Assembly: GCA_019241645.1 (NCBI GenBank) | Contig: JAFAWQ010000026.1 | Coordinates: forward strand, 1-64,000 | Length of the DNA: 64,000 nt | Direction: 5' to 3' | From: Alphaproteobacteria bacterium | Lineage (GTDB): Bacteria > Pseudomonadota > Alphaproteobacteria > Micropepsales > Micropepsaceae | Part shown: one piece after another, positions 2 through 54,840 of the stretch | Numbering within the stretch: the stretch's first letter is position 1 | Layout of the letters: the number at the start of each line of letters is the position of its first letter | The notes under the pieces: generated by a model | Told to the model about the DNA's origin: nothing | The model's input: only the letters and a program-made list of their open reading frames with translations | The model's database searches: none | Made by a program: the position numbers and the translations under genes

Positions 2-712
2 CAGCGTGGCATGAAGGAGTTCCGTATCTACCGCTACGATCCGGATACCGGGGAAAATCCGCGCATCGACAGCTACGGCGTCGATCTCAATAGCTGCGGG
101 CCCATGGTTCTGGACGCGCTGATCAAGATCAAGAACGAGATCGATCCGACGCTCACCTTCCGCCGCTCCTGCCGGGAGGGTGTATGCGGCTCGTGCGCGA
201 TGAACATTGGCGGCGGCAACACCCTCGCTTGCACCAAGGCCATTTCCGACGTGTCCGGCTCTGTCAGCATCTATCCGTTGCCGCATATGCCGGTGGTGAA
301 AGACCTGGTGCCGGACATGACGAATTTTTACGCGCAATACGCGTCGATCCGGCCCTACCTCCGCACCAAGACGGCGGAGCCGGAGAAGGAATGGCGGCAA
401 ACACCAGACGACCGTGAAAAGCTCAACGGTCTCTACGAGTGCATTTTGTGCGCGTGCTGCTCAACGTCCTGTCCCAGCTATTGGTGGAATTCGGAGCGCT
501 ATCTTGGCCCCGCCGCGCTGCTGCAATCCTACCGCTGGATTGCCGACAGCCGCGATGAATGCACGGGAGAGCGGCTTGATGACCTCGAAGATCCGTTTCG
601 CCTCTATCGCTGCCACACCATCATGAACTGTGCCGAGACCTGCCCCAAAGGGCTGAACCCGGCGCAGGCCATCGGTGAGGTGAAGCAGATGCTGGTGAAG
701 CGCAGTTTGTAG
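2..712 (+). CDS. sdhB: Succinate dehydrogenase iron-sulfur subunit (5' end outside window)
   Basis: This is the electron-transfer subunit of respiratory complex II, passing electrons from the FAD of SdhA to ubiquinone at the inner membrane. The reading frame is open to the left window edge. Alphaproteobacterial SdhB usually has about 25 more N-terminal residues, so the first in-frame ATG (position 11) is probably internal. Counting from that Met, the [2Fe-2S] ligands are C54, C59, C62 and C74. The C-terminal ferredoxin-like domain has C144, C147, C150 and C154, then C201, C207 and C211, enough for the [4Fe-4S] and [3Fe-4S] clusters. The upstream sdhCDA genes should lie before the window. Confidence 0.96.
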
Positions 713-726
713 ACAGGGAGGCGGCA

Positions 727-1026
727 ACGAAAGCGGCGCTCGCCTTTCCAGTCCTTTTCGGACTCGCGGCCGGCAGCCCTGCATTCGGTGATCCGCCGGG
801 CACTTCCTGTCCGGATTATACGCTGCAGATTCCTTGGAACATACCCGCCGCGTACAGCGCCCATGCGGGAGCGGCGTATCATGCGGCATCGAAGAAGACG
901 CGCGTATTGCTGGCGCTACGAAGTCAGATATTGGTTACGCAACGCAGGTCCGGTGGGCAATTGTCCGGCGCCGATCGGAAAGCATTTCAGGACGCGCTCA
1001 ACGCGATTCAAGCCGGACACTACTGA
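727..1026 (+). CDS. Small exported protein with ACG in place of a start codon
   Basis: An uninterrupted 99-codon frame sits between sdhB and the UrcA gene. It has no ATG, GTG or TTG before its core: upstream the frame is closed by TGA at 676-678. ACG at 727 lies where the start should be, about seven bases after a strong ribosome binding site (GGGAGG, 716-721). The next residues are K-A-A-L-A-F-P-V-L-F-G-L-A-A-G-S-P-A-F-G, a textbook signal peptide with an AxG-type cleavage site. The mature part (about 77 residues) has one Cys and an acidic/Gln-rich helical tail ending GHY. Either a T-to-C change destroyed the ATG (mutation or sequencing error), or ACG is used as a weak start. I do not recognise the family. 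Confidence 0.55.
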   Translation, partial: TKAALAFPVLFGLAAGSPAFGDPPGTSCPDYTLQIPWNIPAAYSAHAGAAYHAASKKTRVLLALRSQILVTQRRSGGQLSGADRKAFQDALNAIQAGHY

Positions 1027-1110: not shown

Positions 1111-1575
1111 ATGACGGGCTTCATTTATTCCAAATCGTGTGTTTTGGGCGCCGTTGTCGGCGCGGGCTTGTTGTTGGCGATCCCGGCTGGCGCGCAGGAA
1201 TATGTCGCGTATGGCGCCTACGGCGGACCACCGGAAGAGGTCATTGTCACCGCACCCCGGGAGCGCTTTCGCGAGCAGGGCTCCGGCCTGCGATCGTTCG
1301 CGTTTCCGCCGGAAAAAGTTTCGCTCTCCCAAAACGTCCGCTACGACGATCTCGACCTGGCGACATGGGACGGCGCGGGAGAACTGCATCGGCGCGTGCG
1401 GCACGCGGCGCGAGCGGTTTGCGGCGAACTCCGAGAGGCCTATCCGTTCCAATCGCTGACCAGCGCGCCGAACTGCTATCGGCAAGCAGTTGAAAGCGGT
1501 TTGGTGCGTGCCGATGCGGCGATCGTCCGCGCGCATGCCGGTTCTTATTATTATGGTTACGAGTACGGCTACTAG
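1111..1575 (+). CDS. UrcA family protein
   Basis: A 154-residue exported protein of unknown biochemical role. An N-terminal signal peptide (residues 1-28, ending AGAQ) is followed by a Gly/Tyr-rich linker with the EEVIVTAP motif. The UrcA signature follows: V-x-Y-x-D-L-D-L (about residues 76-84), then a helical stretch with two spaced cysteines (C105 and C119) and an A-x-x-x-A-rich end. The C-terminus is a Tyr/Gly tail (SYYYGYEYGY). UrcA proteins are small periplasmic proteins common in Caulobacterales and Sphingomonadales. A good ribosome site (AAGGGAGAA) lies just before the ATG. It is 84 bp after the ACG-start ORF and could be cotranscribed with it. Confidence 0.8.
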   Translation: MTGFIYSKSCVLGAVVGAGLLLAIPAGAQEYVAYGAYGGPPEEVIVTAPRERFREQGSGLRSFAFPPEKVSLSQNVRYDDLDLATWDGAGELHRRVRHAARAVCGELREAYPFQSLTSAPNCYRQAVESGLVRADAAIVRAHAGSYYYGYEYGY

Positions 1576-1595: not shown

Positions 1596-2468
1596 CTAGG
1601 CTGTTACTGTTTCACCCGCTGTCATTTTGAGGGCAAGGCCGGCCCGCAGGCGCAACACGCGCCACATCAGCGATGCTGCTGCTTCCGTCATCCGGCTTTG
1701 CGGCGCCGCACCGATTGCTTTTGCGACCATTTGGACAAGTTTCCGGATATGATGTCGCCTGTATATGCGCCCCGTACAGGCGAAAGACTGCTTGGCGTAG
1801 AAGGAGCGAATGTAAGGCTTTGCCGCCTCGTCGGACGGCGCAACGTTGGCGCAATAGAAAGCGTAGGCCAGTTCATCGTCGTCAGATTCATTGATGCGGC
1901 TCAGAGCCACCGATAGCTTGCGCCAAAAGGGTAGTTCGGCCTCGTTCTGCGCGTCCATCGTGGCCAGGAAAAGCTTGTAGTGGCGGAATTCGTCCGCGGC
2001 GATGCGCGCCGCAATCTCCTTCAGCACGGGCTCGTCGGTCACGTCTCGCATGGCGCTGTAGTATGAGGACGTGCCGGATTCCACGACGCAACGGGCGATC
2101 ATTTCGCCCCGTCGGCTGCCGCGGATGGACACGGCGTCATCGCCCGTAAAGTGCGCCGGCCGGTAACCCGCACGGAAGCGTGCAAATGCTAGTTCCAGTC
2201 TCCACGCCGGATCGGCCAGCTCGGCCCATCTTGCAAGCGCCGCGCCGTGTTGCGCTTCCTCCCGTCCCCAGCCCTCGAACTCCGCGATCAATTTTTCGTC
2301 GCCCTGGAAGACGCGTGAGAGATAGGCCACGTAGTCCGGCGCATTGTACTCGACCAGCGCTGCTGCTTTCACAGCCGCCAGCATACGAGGCTCGACCTTG
2401 GACGGATCGAACTGGTTCCACGGTATGTCGCCAAGGCTCCAGCCTGCCGTGTAAACTGTACCCGTCAT
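1596..2468 (-). CDS. Ferritin-like diiron protein
   Basis: A 290-residue soluble protein with the carboxylate-bridged diiron four-helix-bundle ligand set: E40, E71-x-x-H74, E130 and E160-x-x-H163. This pattern is shared by rubrerythrin, ferritin and diiron oxygenase families. The helix around E71 reads REEAQHG and the one around E160 reads ADEFRHYK. There is no rubredoxin-type Cys4 domain, so it is not a classical rubrerythrin. The C-terminal 80 residues are extra helical sequence. It is transcribed away from the first FlgO/TPR gene, sharing a 149-bp intergenic region that contains an inverted repeat. Likely an iron-dependent oxidase or oxidative-stress protein; the substrate is unknown. Confidence 0.75.
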   Translation of the reverse strand: MTGTVYTAGWSLGDIPWNQFDPSKVEPRMLAAVKAAALVEYNAPDYVAYLSRVFQGDEKLIAEFEGWGREEAQHGAALARWAELADPAWRLELAFARFRAGYRPAHFTGDDAVSIRGSRRGEMIARCVVESGTSSYYSAMRDVTDEPVLKEIAARIAADEFRHYKLFLATMDAQNEAELPFWRKLSVALSRINESDDDELAYAFYCANVAPSDEAAKPYIRSFYAKQSFACTGRIYRRHHIRKLVQMVAKAIGAAPQSRMTEAAASLMWRVLRLRAGLALKMTAGETVTA

Positions 2469-2617: not shown

Positions 2618-4402
2618 ATGGAACAGCTCCTGGAACTGGCGCGCGAGCGCAAGCTCGACCGGGTTGGCGCGACCTACGCGGTGGTGGCTTGGGTGGTGGT
2701 CCAGGCCGCCTCCATTGCCTTTCCTGTGTTCTCGGCGCCTCCATGGGCCCTGCGGTGGCTTATCGTGGGCGCCATGGCGGGCCTTCCATTGGTGCTCGCG
2801 GCAACCTGGGTGGCTGGCAGGCGCGTGGCGCCAGCGCCGCGACCCATTGCCGCAAAAGACTGGCTTTTGATCGGCCTGATTGGACTCGTAGCGGTTCTTC
2901 TGATCGTGCAGCTCGTGCTGGGCTTTGAGCGGACATCGGGGCCGGATCGTCCACAGGCGATGGCCGCGTCATCCATCGCGGTGCTCCCATTCGTCAATCT
3001 GAGCGGCGATCCAAACAAGCTCTATTTTAGCGACGGCATCGCCGACCAGTTGATCAGCGAACTGGCGCGGACGCCTTCACTGCGCGTGGCTGCGCGGTCT
3101 TCCTCCTTTGCCTTCCGCGGCAAGGCCGTTGACGTAAAAGCGATCGCCAAGGCACTGAACGTGCGCGCGGTTCTGGAAGGTAGCGTGCGCGAGGACGGCA
3201 ATCGCGTGCGGATCGCCGCCGAACTGGTGGACGCGAGCAACGGCTACCAGATTTGGTCTGAGACGTACGATCGCAATCTCACCAACATTCTGGCTCTGCA
3301 GGACGATATCTCCCATGCCATTATAGAAACATTGAGCAAGCGTTTCTGGGGTAGGCCGGTCGTTGCCACTCCCAGACCGGCGCCACGCGCTATCAATCCG
3401 GAGGCCTACAAGGCGTATCTGCAGGGAGAATATTATTTCGCCCAGCGCACCTCCGACGGCGTGGCGCGCGCCATCGCGCTCTTTGCACGAGCGACTGAAC
3501 TGGCGCCGGACTATGCCGAGGCATTCGCGGCACTCGGATATGCGCGCGCCACGAATGCGTTGAATTATCAGGCTTATGGCGACACGGACCACGCCCTCGC
3601 GGCAGTGAAGAAGGCCCAGGCGCTCGACCCCAACAACGCCACCGCCCTGATTGCCCATGCCACAGCCTGCATCCTCAAATGGCGATGGCGGGACATTGCC
3701 GCCGATTTTCGGCGGCTGGAGCGATTACATGTGAACAGCGCGGCGGTCTGGCACCTGCGCGCCATCTTCTTCGACTATATGGGCCTGACGCAGTTTACAG
3801 GCGCCGCGGAAGCAAAGGCTGTGCAACTCGATCCCCTGTCTTTCATCGATCGCTACAATCTTGCGCTGTATGCGCTCACCGCCCGGCACTACGATGAGGC
3901 GATGAAGATCGCCGCCGAGGCTCAGGCATTGCAGCCGGGAAACTTGGAAGTCGTCGCCCTTCAATGCTCTATCGAGGCGGCTCGCAACCGCACGGCAGAG
4001 GCGCGGCGTCTGCATCGTCAATTGCTCTCGCGCGCAAGCCCCGGTGAGCCGTCGGCAGATGCGTTGTCCTGCCAATACTACATTGCGGTGGCCGAGAAAA
4101 AGTTTGCGGTCGTGCGGCAGGTCGCGGATGCAGCGGCGGCTGCCTTTCCGGCGAAAGACATTCCTGCGACGGATATCGCCATCGCGTACGGACACGCCAA
4201 CGATGTGGATGCCGCAATCAAGTGGTTCCGGCGCGCTTTTGAGATTCGCGATCCACAATCGCTGCGCGTGCCCCATACGGAAAAGAACCTGCCCAATGTG
4301 TTCGCCGATCCGCGCTGGAAGGCGCTGCGCAACGAACCGGCCATTCGCGATTTTGAATTGGCCCGCCGCGAGATCGCCGCTGAGAATCAGGCTGGTGAGT
4401 GA
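2618..4402 (+). CDS. Membrane-anchored FlgO/TolB-like N-domain plus TPR protein, paralog 1
   Basis: A 594-residue protein. A short cytoplasmic helix with the shared L-D-R-V-x-x-x-Y motif is followed by about three transmembrane segments (18-40, 46-66, 83-102). Next comes a FlgO/TolB-N-like domain (about 118-245; S-I-A-V-L-P-F-x-N-L-S-G-D, then the YFSDGI and VLEGSVRE blocks), and then TPR-type helical repeats to the end (about 265-590). Database entries often call this family adenylate cyclase, but no cyclase catalytic domain is present. It is the first of three paralogs here, 28 bp before paralog 2, so the two are probably cotranscribed. Likely a periplasmic or inner-membrane scaffold; its partner is unknown. 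Confidence 0.8.
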   Translation: MEQLLELARERKLDRVGATYAVVAWVVVQAASIAFPVFSAPPWALRWLIVGAMAGLPLVLAATWVAGRRVAPAPRPIAAKDWLLIGLIGLVAVLLIVQLVLGFERTSGPDRPQAMAASSIAVLPFVNLSGDPNKLYFSDGIADQLISELARTPSLRVAARSSSFAFRGKAVDVKAIAKALNVRAVLEGSVREDGNRVRIAAELVDASNGYQIWSETYDRNLTNILALQDDISHAIIETLSKRFWGRPVVATPRPAPRAINPEAYKAYLQGEYYFAQRTSDGVARAIALFARATELAPDYAEAFAALGYARATNALNYQAYGDTDHALAAVKKAQALDPNNATALIAHATACILKWRWRDIAADFRRLERLHVNSAAVWHLRAIFFDYMGLTQFTGAAEAKAVQLDPLSFIDRYNLALYALTARHYDEAMKIAAEAQALQPGNLEVVALQCSIEAARNRTAEARRLHRQLLSRASPGEPSADALSCQYYIAVAEKKFAVVRQVADAAAAAFPAKDIPATDIAIAYGHANDVDAAIKWFRRAFEIRDPQSLRVPHTEKNLPNVFADPRWKALRNEPAIRDFELARREIAAENQAGE

Positions 4403-4430
4403 GAACAGATCCACCGGATAATTTCGCGCG

Positions 4431-6200
4431 ATGAAGCACCTTATCGAGACTGCTCGCCTGCGGGGCTTGGACCGTGTGACAGTGGGATACACGGTCGCCG
4501 CGTGGGCGATCGTGCAGGGCGCGGCGCTGGCCGCAGGCGCATTCGCGTGGCCGAACTGGATCTTGCAAGGCGTGATCGTCGGCGCGGTGTTCGGTCTTCC
4601 CGCCGCGCTTGCGTTGGCGTGGGTGCTGGCCGTTCGAAGAGAGACGGGCAGCACGTTCAAACCAACACGGAACGATCTGCAGGTTCTGGCCGGTGTGGCT
4701 GCGGTTTTCGTACTGGCCAGTGCCATCCTTGTCCTTGTTTTCTGGCCCAGGACGCACCCCGAAACGACGGCGATGGACAACGCGCCGCCGGGTTCTGTTG
4801 CCGTGCTGCCCTTCGCCAACGTCAGCGGCGATCCGTCAAAACGCTATTTCAGCGATGGTCTGTCCGACGAGCTGATAAACGGACTGGCGCGTATCCCGAG
4901 CCTCCGGGTTGCGGCGCGCAGCTCGTCGTTTGCATTCGCGGGAAAGGACCAGGATGCCCGATCCATCGCACGCGCCCTCAATGTTGGTGCGTTGCTGGAG
5001 GGAAGCGTGCGCGAATCGGGTAACCGGGTGCGCATCACCGCCCAGCTTGTCAGCGGCAAGGACGGCTATCAGCTGTGGTCGCAATCCTATGACCGGGAGC
5101 TTACCGACATTCTCGCACTGCAAGACGAGATCGCGCGTGCCGTCACCGTGGCTCTCTCCGCGCGGCTGCTGCCGAAGAGCCATGCCGCGCCGATCGATGC
5201 GCAGGCGTACCGCTTCTATCTGCAAGGCAAATACCTGTCCGCCAAAGCCAATCCCGACGATCTCGAAAAAGCCATCGCGCTCTTTGGCAAGGCCAACGCA
5301 GCCGCGCCGCGCTACGCGCCGGCCTATGCGGAGACGGCGTCTGCCGCGCTCGAGCTCGCGGAGGTGTATGGCAAGAGCAATTGGCTCACGCCGGCGGAGG
5401 TCGCGGCCACCCGGGCACAGGAACTCGATCCCGAGAACCTGCAAGCACTGACGGTCTTGGCGGAGGTCGAGATCGACAAATGGAACTGGTCAAAGGCGAC
5501 AGACCTGTACCGCCGCGCCCGGTCTCTGAATCCCGAGAATGTCTTCGTCCTGCACCTTCGCTCGGTACTGGCTTACGTGTTCCAATTTCAGGGGGAGGTC
5601 TTGGCGGCCGAGGTCAAGGCGGCGGCATTCAATCCGCTATCCTTCGGGCTTAAATTCAATATCGCCAATTGGTACCTGACGGCAGGGAAGTACGACAAGG
5701 CGGCAGCGTTCACGAACCAGGCCTTGAAGCTTCAGCCCGCCAATCTCGACGCGCGCAGCCAGTCATGCCTGATCGCCATTCGCCGGGGCGATGTGCAGGA
5801 GGCCAAACGCATCGCGAAGATTTTCGCGCAGGCCTCCGCCAAAGATCCGCAGAATTTCGGCGATTGCCCCTTCGAGATCGCGCTAGCGCAGCACAATCCG
5901 GCGGAAGCTCGAAAGATCGTCGACCGGGCGGCAGCCGATTTCCTGACCAATGGAGGTTATGCCACTTCGATCGGGGATCACTACCGCAAGCTGGGCGATT
6001 TCAACGTCGCGATGTCCTGGTACGAACGCGCTTACGTCAATCACGAGGTACTGCTCTTCGGCGTGCCCTATCAGCGAGAGCGCGATGTCCGGTTCTTGAA
6101 TACGCCGGCGTGGAAATCGCTGTGGTCGCGCGAGCCCATCCGCGTTTGGCTGAAAGCCAGGGCGGAGTTCGGCAAGACGATCCAGAAAACGGAAAGCTAA
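4431..6200 (+). CDS. Membrane-anchored FlgO/TolB-like N-domain plus TPR protein, paralog 2
   Basis: A 589-residue paralog of the preceding gene with the same order: L-D-R-V helix, three transmembrane segments (about 20-40, 46-66, 85-105), FlgO/TolB-like block (about 121-250, again with F-A-N-V-S-G-D-P, RYFSDG and LLEGSVRES), and TPR helices with W- and Y-rich motifs. It starts 28 bp after paralog 1, consistent with an operon formed by tandem duplication. Its TAA (6198-6200) overlaps the TAG of the reverse-strand atpC (6197-6199), so the two genes end tail to tail within a shared CTAA. Function is unknown. Confidence 0.8.
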   Translation: MKHLIETARLRGLDRVTVGYTVAAWAIVQGAALAAGAFAWPNWILQGVIVGAVFGLPAALALAWVLAVRRETGSTFKPTRNDLQVLAGVAAVFVLASAILVLVFWPRTHPETTAMDNAPPGSVAVLPFANVSGDPSKRYFSDGLSDELINGLARIPSLRVAARSSSFAFAGKDQDARSIARALNVGALLEGSVRESGNRVRITAQLVSGKDGYQLWSQSYDRELTDILALQDEIARAVTVALSARLLPKSHAAPIDAQAYRFYLQGKYLSAKANPDDLEKAIALFGKANAAAPRYAPAYAETASAALELAEVYGKSNWLTPAEVAATRAQELDPENLQALTVLAEVEIDKWNWSKATDLYRRARSLNPENVFVLHLRSVLAYVFQFQGEVLAAEVKAAAFNPLSFGLKFNIANWYLTAGKYDKAAAFTNQALKLQPANLDARSQSCLIAIRRGDVQEAKRIAKIFAQASAKDPQNFGDCPFEIALAQHNPAEARKIVDRAAADFLTNGGYATSIGDHYRKLGDFNVAMSWYERAYVNHEVLLFGVPYQRERDVRFLNTPAWKSLWSREPIRVWLKARAEFGKTIQKTES

Positions 6201-6595
6201 AGCGAAGCGCGCAATGTTCTGAGCGCGTCGGCGGTATCCACGGCGCGGGCACGGTCAGCTTCGGTCTTTGCGAGCAGTACGTCTTCCTCCGCGTCCTTGA
6301 TGCGCTCGTCCAGAGCCATAGTGTCAACATCCGTCATGGGCATGGCTTCTTCGGCCAGCACGGTCACCTTGTGCGGAGAAACTTCGGCAAAACCTCCCAA
6401 TACGAAGAATCGCTGGTCGCCCAAGGTTCCGCCTGTCACGTCGATCACGCCGGGCTTGAGGGTCGTAATGAGGGGCATATGGCCGTCCAGCACACCGAAA
6501 TAGCCGTCGGCGCCCGGAAGCGTGACCATGTCCGCTTCTTCGGAAAGCATGAGGCGCTCCGGGGATACCAGGTCAAAAGGAATTTTCTCGGTCAT
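6197..6595 (-). CDS. atpC: F1Fo ATP synthase epsilon subunit
   Basis: A 132-residue epsilon subunit of the F1 central stalk, which couples rotation to catalysis and inhibits ATP hydrolysis. The start is the Met before T-E-K-I-P-F-D-L-V; upstream in-frame codons lack family similarity. The N-terminal beta-sandwich contains V-S-P-E-R, the G-x-F-G-V-L-D-G-H block and the S-P-H-K-V-T-V-L-A-E-E-A segment, followed by a helical hairpin rich in A, E and D. It is not adjacent to atpD: the third FlgO/TPR gene, on the other strand, lies between. It therefore needs either its own promoter in 6596-6720 or 1.9 kb of read-through antisense to that gene. Confidence 0.93.
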   Translation of the reverse strand: MTEKIPFDLVSPERLMLSEEADMVTLPGADGYFGVLDGHMPLITTLKPGVIDVTGGTLGDQRFFVLGGFAEVSPHKVTVLAEEAMPMTDVDTMALDERIKDAEEDVLLAKTEADRARAVDTADALRTLRASL

Positions 6596-6671
6596 TGGCT
6601 TCCTATAGCAGGGCCTCCCGGCGGTTGAAAAGCTCCCATTCCTTCGGGACGGTCCGGTCAAGCAGATCGGC

Positions 6672-6700
6672 GTGGCAGGCGCAATTGTGCATGCTAGATT
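6672..6700 (+). promoter_or_regulatory. Candidate sigma70-type promoter for paralog 3
   Basis: GTGGCA (6672-6677), a 17-bp spacer and TAGATT (6695-6700) give four of six matches at each hexamer. The transcription start would be near 6707, only about 14 bases before the ATG at 6721. An imperfect inverted repeat (GCAAT ... ATTGC, 6681-6702) overlaps the spacer and the -10 element and could be an operator. Prediction by eye only. Confidence 0.3.
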
Positions 6701-6720
6701 GCACGCGGGGCGCGTTAATC

Positions 6721-8517
6721 ATGCGGTATCTGCTCGACAACATACGGGACCGAAAGTTTGATCGCGTTGCGGTCGGCTACACGGTTGCCGCCTGGGCCGT
6801 AATTCAGGCGACCTCGGTTGGGGCGTCCGCTTTCGCATGGCCGATGTGGGTGTTGCAGGCGGTGATCGTCGCTGGCGTCGGGGGGCTGCCCATTGTTCTG
6901 CTTGGTGCCTGGACGCTGGGCGTGCGACGCAACACGGAAGGCCATGGCTTCCGGCCCTCGCGCGCCGATTGGCACATGCTAGGATTGATGGGGCCTTTCC
7001 TTTTGGTGGCTAGTGCCGCTTTCATTTTTGTGTTCTGGCCGCGCCCCACCGCTAATACCCTCGCGGCGCAAACCGTCGCTGGCGAGCCGCCGCCAAATTC
7101 CATCGCCGTTCTGCCATTTGCCAATCTTGGCGGAGACGCGAACAAGCTCTACTTCAGCCAAGGCATCGCAGAACAGCTGATAAACGCGTTGTCGCAAATT
7201 CCGGCACTGCGCGTAGCGGCGCGCACATCATCTTTTTCGTTCCAGGGGAAAAGTCAAAGCCTCACGGCGATAGCGCGAGCGTTGAATGTGCGGTCGGTGC
7301 TGGAAGGTTCGGTCCTCGCTGTCGGCGATCGCATACGCATTGCCGTGCAACTGGAGGACTCGCGAACCGGATTTCAGATTTGGTCCAAGAGCTACGACCG
7401 CGATTTGAGCGATATCCTGGCCGTCCAAGACAGCATCAGCGCGGAAATCGCAAATGCCATCAGCGAGCGACTTTTGGGCAAGAAGACAATCGTGTCCGCT
7501 GCCGCGGCCCGGACCATCGATCCGGAAAGTTATCGCATGTTTCTTCAGGGCCGCTTCTACGCCGCACGCGATGACGAAGCCGATTATCGCCGCGCCGCAA
7601 GCCTGTTCCAGCGGGTGACATTGCGTGCGCCAAATTACGCGGATGGCTTTGCGGAATATGGCAATGCCCTGAACGCCCTGGCCGCGGACTATGGCGACAG
7701 TTCCGCATTCGCCGCGAGCGAGCGGGCAACGCGCCGCGCCCTGGCGCTCGATGGACGCAATCTGCGGGTGCTCCACACCATGATGGTCGTGTCGATCTCG
7801 AAATGGGACTGGCTTGGGGCGGCGGATTGGTTTCGCCGCTCGCGCGCAATCAACCCCAACAGTTCCGTTACACTTCACAGTCAATCGGTGCTGGCCTCGG
7901 CGATGAACTTTCCCCAGCAGGATTTCGAGGCGGAGAAAAAGGCGGCGGATCTCGACCCGCTATCCTTCATCAAACACTTCAACCTAGCTGTCTGGTACTT
8001 CGAGCAGGCCCGCTTCGACGATGCGGCAAAGGCCGCGCGAGATGCTTTGTTGCTGCAACCCTCGAACGCGGCAGGGAGCGATTTGCTTTGCACTATCCAG
8101 GTCGCGCGGCACAAACTCAGCGAAGCGCACCGGATCGCGGCGAGTTTGGCTACAGGTTACTCCTCCAATCCTGATTGGCGCGCGGGCTGTCCGATGGATA
8201 TCGCGCTGGCGGAAGGCAGGAAGGCCGATGCCCGCAAAATCGTTGACGAGGTGGCCAGAGCTTACAGCCCCGGCGGCGGGGCGACTGCAATTGGCAGCGC
8301 CTATCGCCGTCTCGGTGACCTCGACCGGGCGATGCTGTGGTACGAGCGCGCATATTCGGCGCGAGAACGCGAACTTCTACAGGTGCCGCAAGACCGGCGG
8401 CAATCGCCTGCTCTTCTGGCCAATCCCCGATGGAAGGCGCTATGGAAGCGCCAGCCGATCCGGGATTGGGAAGAAGCTCGTCACGAGGTGCGCGCCATCT
8501 TGAACGTCGGAACGTAG
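6721..8517 (+). CDS. Membrane-anchored FlgO/TolB-like N-domain plus TPR protein, paralog 3
   Basis: A 598-residue third paralog with the same architecture: F-D-R-V-A-V-G-Y-T-V-A-A-W helix, transmembrane segments near 20-40, 46-66 and 85-103, FlgO/TolB-like domain (S-I-A-V-L-P-F-A-N-L-G-G-D, YFSQGI, VLEGSVLA), then TPR repeats. I chose the ATG at 6721 because it aligns exactly with the starts of paralogs 1 and 2; the longer open frame to 6595 only covers the atpC leader. The gene lies antisense in the atp operon, 125 bp from atpC at its head and 17 bp from the end of atpD at its tail. The G-G-D variant and ASERATRRALALDG-type repeats show divergence from the other two. Confidence 0.8.
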   Translation: MRYLLDNIRDRKFDRVAVGYTVAAWAVIQATSVGASAFAWPMWVLQAVIVAGVGGLPIVLLGAWTLGVRRNTEGHGFRPSRADWHMLGLMGPFLLVASAAFIFVFWPRPTANTLAAQTVAGEPPPNSIAVLPFANLGGDANKLYFSQGIAEQLINALSQIPALRVAARTSSFSFQGKSQSLTAIARALNVRSVLEGSVLAVGDRIRIAVQLEDSRTGFQIWSKSYDRDLSDILAVQDSISAEIANAISERLLGKKTIVSAAAARTIDPESYRMFLQGRFYAARDDEADYRRAASLFQRVTLRAPNYADGFAEYGNALNALAADYGDSSAFAASERATRRALALDGRNLRVLHTMMVVSISKWDWLGAADWFRRSRAINPNSSVTLHSQSVLASAMNFPQQDFEAEKKAADLDPLSFIKHFNLAVWYFEQARFDDAAKAARDALLLQPSNAAGSDLLCTIQVARHKLSEAHRIAASLATGYSSNPDWRAGCPMDIALAEGRKADARKIVDEVARAYSPGGGATAIGSAYRRLGDLDRAMLWYERAYSARERELLQVPQDRRQSPALLANPRWKALWKRQPIRDWEEARHEVRAILNVGT

Positions 8518-14886: not shown

Positions 14887-17353
<2,467 letters not shown>

Positions 17354-54528: not shown

Positions 54529-54840
54529 ATGAGAAATCTAGCAAAGGCCATTGTGCTCATAGCGGCCGTGGCCTGCGTTACTGCGCCTGCGGCGGATGCG
54601 AGCTGCCAAGGCCGGAAGACAACCGGCACCGTTCTCGGCGCGGCGGGAGGCGGCGTTTTGGGCAACGTCATCACCCACGGCAGTGCAATCGGCACGGTGG
54701 CTGGCGTGGTCGGTGGCGGGCTGGTCGGACATGAAGTCGCCAAAGGCGGATGCTCCCGCCGTGTGGCGTACTATCACCATCGGCGCTACTGGATCGACCG
54801 CCACGGCCACCGGCATTACTACCGCGTCGCCAGGCGCTGA
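54529..54840 (+). CDS. Exported glycine-zipper 2TM protein
   Basis: A 103-residue exported protein. The signal peptide covers 1-24. Two glycine-rich stretches (G-T-V-L-G-A-A-G-G-G-V-L-G and I-G-T-V-A-G-V-V-G-G-G-L-V-G-H) form the Rick_17kDa/glycine-zipper 2TM motif. A His/Tyr/Arg-rich tail (Y-Y-H-H-R-R-Y-W-I-D-R-H-G-H-R-H) may bind metal. GGGAGG lies just before the start. Role unknown. Confidence 0.8.
   Translation: MRNLAKAIVLIAAVACVTAPAADASCQGRKTTGTVLGAAGGGVLGNVITHGSAIGTVAGVVGGGLVGHEVAKGGCSRRVAYYHHRRYWIDRHGHRHYYRVARR

Follow-up and report, generated by a model that had tools for sequence, protein, structure and literature searches.

An ACG codon at the start position of a diverged small secreted protein gene beside sdhB in an alphaproteobacterial genome

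Introduction

In the study by Hecht et al. of 2017 on initiation from 64 codons, initiation in E. coli was reportedly far weaker at ACG than at ATG. Natural genes with non-standard start codons do exist, and passages of one source describe two, sigR with GTC and infC with ATT or ATC (PMC5472188). Starts at GTG and TTG tend to carry a stronger, compensating Shine-Dalgarno sequence according to sections of a second source (PMC5622118), and an excerpt of a third reports that in E. coli a frameshifted lambda cI worked from an ACA codon (PMC6397469). Among the literature matches listed there was no natural bacterial ACG start, an observation that we do not extend to the literature as a whole.

Here we describe a 99-codon open reading frame (hereafter the ORF) near one end of a contig from an alphaproteobacterium; the window analysed is a stretch of 64,000 nucleotides. 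Like sigR and infC, the ORF has a codon other than ATG, GTG or TTG in the start position, together with a good ribosome site. The difference is that the sigR and infC starts are experimentally proven, that of infC being regulated by IF3, in the passages of the source cited (PMC5472188), whereas the ORF is known from sequence alone. The features discussed are collected in Table 1.

Table 1. Features of the ORF and its surroundings, in window coordinates
Feature	Position	Strand	Basis and remarks
sdhB, succinate dehydrogenase iron-sulfur subunit (upstream neighbour)	11..712; stop TAG 710-712	+	NCBIfam NF004616, E 1.6e-114; Pfam Fer2_3
Shine-Dalgarno AGGGAGG	715..721	+	Sequence; 5 nt before ACG; duplex energy -11.5 kcal/mol
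99-codon ORF, diverged relative of an uncatalogued small secreted protein family	727..1026	+	Family-profile match
ACG where a start codon is expected	727..729	+	Sequence; family comparison
Signal-peptide-like N-terminus	727..789	+	Hydropathy and eye; putative cleavage after AFG
Helix 1 of predicted C-terminal hairpin (residues 47-74)	865..948	+	AlphaFold2; block pLDDT 54-96 over residues 41-80
SGGQLS loop	949..966	+	The 16 other members have DGGxL[TS] there
Helix 2 of predicted hairpin (residues 81-95)	967..1011	+	AlphaFold2 model
UrcA-family secreted protein gene (downstream neighbour)	1111..1575	+	TIGR04433, E 1.7e-13
Weakly ferritin/rubrerythrin-like gene	1596..2468	-	Pfam Rubrerythrin, 19.3 bits, below the cut-off of 22.8

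Results

The reading frame and its start

The ORF runs from the ACG to a TGA stop at 1024-1026, with no stop or frameshift across its 99 codons, and its first codon is one substitution away from ATG. The gap between the sdhB stop and the ACG is 14 nt. The frame is open from 679, and no in-frame ATG, GTG, TTG or CTG occurs between 679 and 727; downstream, the first in-frame ATG, GTG or TTG is a TTG at 907, which is codon 61, lies beyond the signal peptide and has weak Shine-Dalgarno pairing ahead of it (-1.5). Alternative in-frame starts were accordingly rejected, since there is none upstream and the TTG codons at 907, 931 and 961 all fall within the mature part. An earlier note on this DNA had claimed that ACG stands exactly where ATG is expected and that there is no other usable start; the first claim agrees with the sequence and the second holds within the frame. 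A frameshift fusion to SdhB was also considered, as the two frames overlap at 679-709, but it is unlikely because the signal peptide would then sit internally, and no shift-prone site was noticed by eye. Gene callers skip frames that lack ATG, GTG or TTG, and the ORF is therefore probably absent from the annotation.

The Shine-Dalgarno pairing of the ORF is the strongest of the 21 starts compared, with the runner-up at -8.5; several of the 20 other starts are simply mechanical starts of open reading frames, and sdhB was omitted as its upstream sequence is lacking. The N-terminus, TKAALAFPVLFGLAAGSPAFG, is marked by a Lys near its beginning and by a hydrophobic core, in which the best mean hydropathy over 9 residues is 2.36; the putative cleavage site was read by eye. 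The ideal ribosome site and perfect signal peptide of the earlier note are both upheld, the latter in the form of a signal-peptide-like N-terminus. When both strands of the 64 kb were scanned for a Shine-Dalgarno 5-mer lying 4-10 nt ahead of any of seven near-cognate non-start codons, position 727 was the sole near-cognate site that also had a signal-peptide-like N-terminus, by criteria that were set post hoc with the ORF already seen. True start codons passed the identical filter at 2 sites.

A family of small secreted proteins

Searches with the ORF as a single sequence gave no significant relative, as would be expected of a chance open frame: plasmids gave no match, none of 85 pattern matches in genome contigs was reliable, and no clear match was found in 61 relatives. 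Weak matches sharing a common C-terminal pattern were found in two genomes of the comparison, G003 and G035 (two copies in the latter), and on another contig of the ORF's own genome, C22. Use of the C22 protein as the query gave a coherent family with a signal peptide, a variable-length linker and a conserved core of the type LLALRxEGLKLQxADGGTLTxxHRAYLQAKLDAI. We found 16 family genes in 13 of the 69 genomes of the genus, a count that omits three weak matches (E 0.0036-0.0048) and the ORF itself. The remaining 27 genomes in the taxonomic family gave no member at E 1e-3 among the candidates listed. None was found either in 384 of the 385 genomes of a sample of the class, with at most 13 candidates scored for each; 3 of these 384 belong to the genus but lack the family. 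The class-search matches L143 and L144 were rejected as relatives of the ORF, no frame of theirs appearing among the best 60 family-profile scores. Neither Pfam nor NCBIfam gave a match for the members tried (two members, and three more for Pfam), no Protein Data Bank sequence matched at the threshold used, and no consistent PHROG emerged among 16 rows. The ORF itself matched no NCBIfam family up to E 1, and hence not TIGR04433, the UrcA family to which the adjoining small secreted protein gene belongs.

Scored with a profile built from the 16 members without it, the ORF reaches 30.7 bits, and none of 5,000 shuffles exceeds 10.7. Against the 573 frames of the window, the ORF has an E-value of 1.4e-8 with the runner-up at 6.5 bits, and against 4,093 frames of all compared loci it scores 30.2 bits (E 1e-7), the next unrelated frame scoring 16.4 bits; such E-values are somewhat optimistic, because the family was chosen via the ORF's own weak matches. 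The profile match spans the last 58 residues of the ORF and extends to the final one, with a G-x-Y end as in several members. In uncorrected BLAST comparisons the ORF scores 34.7 bits against family members, no better than against unrelated alanine- and proline-rich low-complexity frames (34.3 and 35.8 bits), which again is what a chance frame would give, and the homology therefore rests on the profile. The profile scores argue firmly that the ORF is a real gene, related to the family.

The ORF and the other members of the genus family (for example G000 contig C22:2932-3198, L075) are alike in their signal-peptide-like N-termini, residue 2 in the family being Lys or Arg (one Asn), in a variable linker and in a C-terminal core, R..LLALR.(16)GG.L(8)Q..L.AI..G.Y, that is predicted from the model of the ORF to form two helices. 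In the AlphaFold2 model of the ORF, block pLDDT is about 95 for residues 61-90 and residues 1-40 are unstructured, with a mean pLDDT of 68.6 and a pTM of 0.46 overall. The core is thus confidently predicted to be a two-helix hairpin around GG.L.

Divergence and codon usage

The other family members differ from the ORF in their starts, in two conserved residues and in far higher profile scores. Their start codons, chosen by eye at the signal peptide, are ATG in 15 cases and GTG in one. The Asp of DGG and a His in the second helix are kept in 16 of 16, and the ORF has Ser and Asp at these positions, for which reason we term it a diverged relative and not a typical member. Leave-one-out profiles give 28.3-34.7 bits for the ORF, as against 65.9-100.8 bits for the 16 members; on these scores, the ORF is the most diverged family member found.

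The codon usage of the ORF is also unusual. Its third-position G+C is 0.626 and its synonymous codon score is -0.035, compared with 0.30 on average over 254 in-frame pieces of window genes, of which 0.8% score as low; the corresponding scores are 0.40 for the C22 paralog, 0.28 for the UrcA gene and 0.23 for another small secreted protein gene. The whole-codon score lies at the 1.6th percentile. The codon score is near that of non-coding frames, a point in favour of a chance frame. The ORF does not share the codon habits of its genome; relaxed selection, low expression and foreign origin are the candidate causes. The codon training set leaves out the ATG frame at 15796-17247, whose G+C by codon position is unlike that of a gene and which probably only shadows the GTG frame at 15674-17353.

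The lost residues and the weak codon bias are signs of relaxed constraint, part of which low expression or a foreign origin could explain. That the frame is unbroken tells only weakly against decay, because 86 of 422 family genes brought down to 25-37 bits by simulated substitutions were free of stops; the simulation excludes indels, which would make an unbroken frame rarer.

The locus in related genomes

The window begins within the end of an sdh operon. The two nearest relatives, which have the closest SdhB proteins (92% and 90%), share with the window the gene order sdhB, UrcA gene, ferritin-like gene. The spacing between sdhB and the UrcA gene is 398 nt in the window as against 89 and about 105 nt in these relatives, and the ORF accounts for the extra length. 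Both relatives lack an ortholog of the ORF between the two genes, and in no other case did a family gene turn up next to sdhB, which was matched at threshold in all but two of the 13 carrier genomes. A motif parsed 10 of 29 sdhB loci, and these were left out of any count. The simplest reading of these sequences is that the ORF was gained in this lineage, the alternative being that it was lost in both nearest relatives. The earlier note had named relatives lacking a homologous protein as a finding that would tell against it: at this locus the two nearest relatives do lack an ortholog, but homologs are present at another place in the same genome and in other genomes of the genus.

Insertion by a mobile element was rejected, as no direct repeat flanks the ORF within 680-1120 and the DNA is present in a single copy in the genome. 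No promoter-like site was found on the plus strand between 500 and 2600. A terminator of the ORF's own was likewise rejected, the sole plus-strand terminator-like site lying inside the ORF at 910-927, with 1 such site found against 2.1 expected by chance.

Discussion

On balance, we think it probable that the ORF is a diverged relative of the family whose start has been lost and which is now silent or almost silent. The ancestor would have been an ordinary gene for a small exported protein, with a signal peptide, a loose linker and a C-terminal helical hairpin, and presumably started with ATG or GTG. Its start codon would have changed to ACG without a replacement start, so that ribosomes at the strong Shine-Dalgarno sequence would initiate rarely or never and the product would be absent or present in traces. 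We infer that initiation at the ACG is very weak and that the ORF is in the course of being lost. An inactive or almost inactive ORF is favoured because the start, the shared residues and the codon bias are all missing. The pull in the opposite direction comes from the unbroken frame, the strongest Shine-Dalgarno of the 21 and the confidently modelled hairpin core. An abandoned gene need not keep a strong Shine-Dalgarno, and the low codon bias can equally reflect low expression or foreign origin. All of these signs would fit a recent loss of the start in an ORF that diverged at a time when it was expressed, and they would also fit a weak ACG that is still used. The ORF resembles start-loss pseudogenes in its lost start, lost shared residues, weak codon bias and lack of an ortholog, but differs from them in its otherwise unbroken frame and strong Shine-Dalgarno. 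Of the three readings in the earlier note, which were a nearly silent gene, a rare ACG start and a read error, the comparison with relatives leans to the first, given the divergence, the two lost residues and the weak codon bias. If the ORF has merely lost its start, it is an instance of ordinary genome erosion.

A less probable reading, to which we give perhaps a minor share of belief, is that the ORF is a working gene with a deliberately weak ACG start, in which the Shine-Dalgarno would compensate for the codon and the output of hairpin protein would be low and possibly dependent on IF3. The pairing strength, the good spacing, the unbroken frame, the intact signal-peptide-like N-terminus and the confident hairpin are all as expected of such a gene, and useful non-standard starts have precedents in sigR and infC, as far as the passages of the source describe them (PMC5472188). 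The stronger Shine-Dalgarno sequences of GTG and TTG starts would by analogy offer a model for that of the ORF, as compensation is presented in the sections cited (PMC5622118). Set against this, no ortholog was found that keeps the ACG, the 16 relatives start with ATG or GTG, the two shared residues and the codon bias are gone, and the literature matches listed hold no natural bacterial ACG-start gene. The full version of this reading, in which the ACG is truly translated and tuned by IF3, the strong Shine-Dalgarno offsets the codon and a trace of periplasmic hairpin is made from a messenger linked to sdhB, seems to us unlikely.

It is more doubtful still that the record is wrong or atypical at 728, through a consensus error or a minority strain variant, and that the start is an ordinary one in the living species. 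A single substitution would turn the codon into ATG, in surroundings that fit a normal start, and the genome is in 53 contigs; as the family relatives found by name are metagenome-assembled at 9 of 9 loci, the genome of the window is possibly so too. Single-base consensus errors are, however, rare in such assemblies, an altered base at 728 leaves the lost shared residues and the weak codon bias unexplained, and only one genome was found for the species. That the ORF is an open frame arisen by chance between sdhB and the UrcA gene, its Shine-Dalgarno and hydrophobic N-terminus both being accidents, is very improbable in view of the profile scores and a match that reaches the last residue, for all that its single-sequence searches, pairwise BLAST scores and codon score are those of such a frame.

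The significance of the ORF is modest, as it concerns one lineage and one genome. It is nevertheless a clean single case for asking if a strong Shine-Dalgarno rescues an ACG start, and it led to a small secreted protein family that, at the thresholds used, matched no entry of Pfam, NCBIfam or the Protein Data Bank.

Some further observations were made on the family and the window. Three of the 13 carrier genomes (G027, G035 and G010; loci L133, L136 and L139) each have two neighbouring family genes, a sign of local duplication. An UrcA-like gene lies upstream of family genes in 2 of 13 contexts, at 0.6 kb and about 3.8 kb (L137:3357-5174 and L136:2057-7087), a proximity that may be due to chance because UrcA genes are common here. 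Elsewhere in the window, three successive long plus-strand frames at 2618-8517 are mutually related and probably form a tandem family, all three matching one gene of L054 and one of L134, and at 54529-54840 lies a gene for a small secreted protein in which the glycine-zipper domain of Pfam PF05433 is matched at 27.5 bits.
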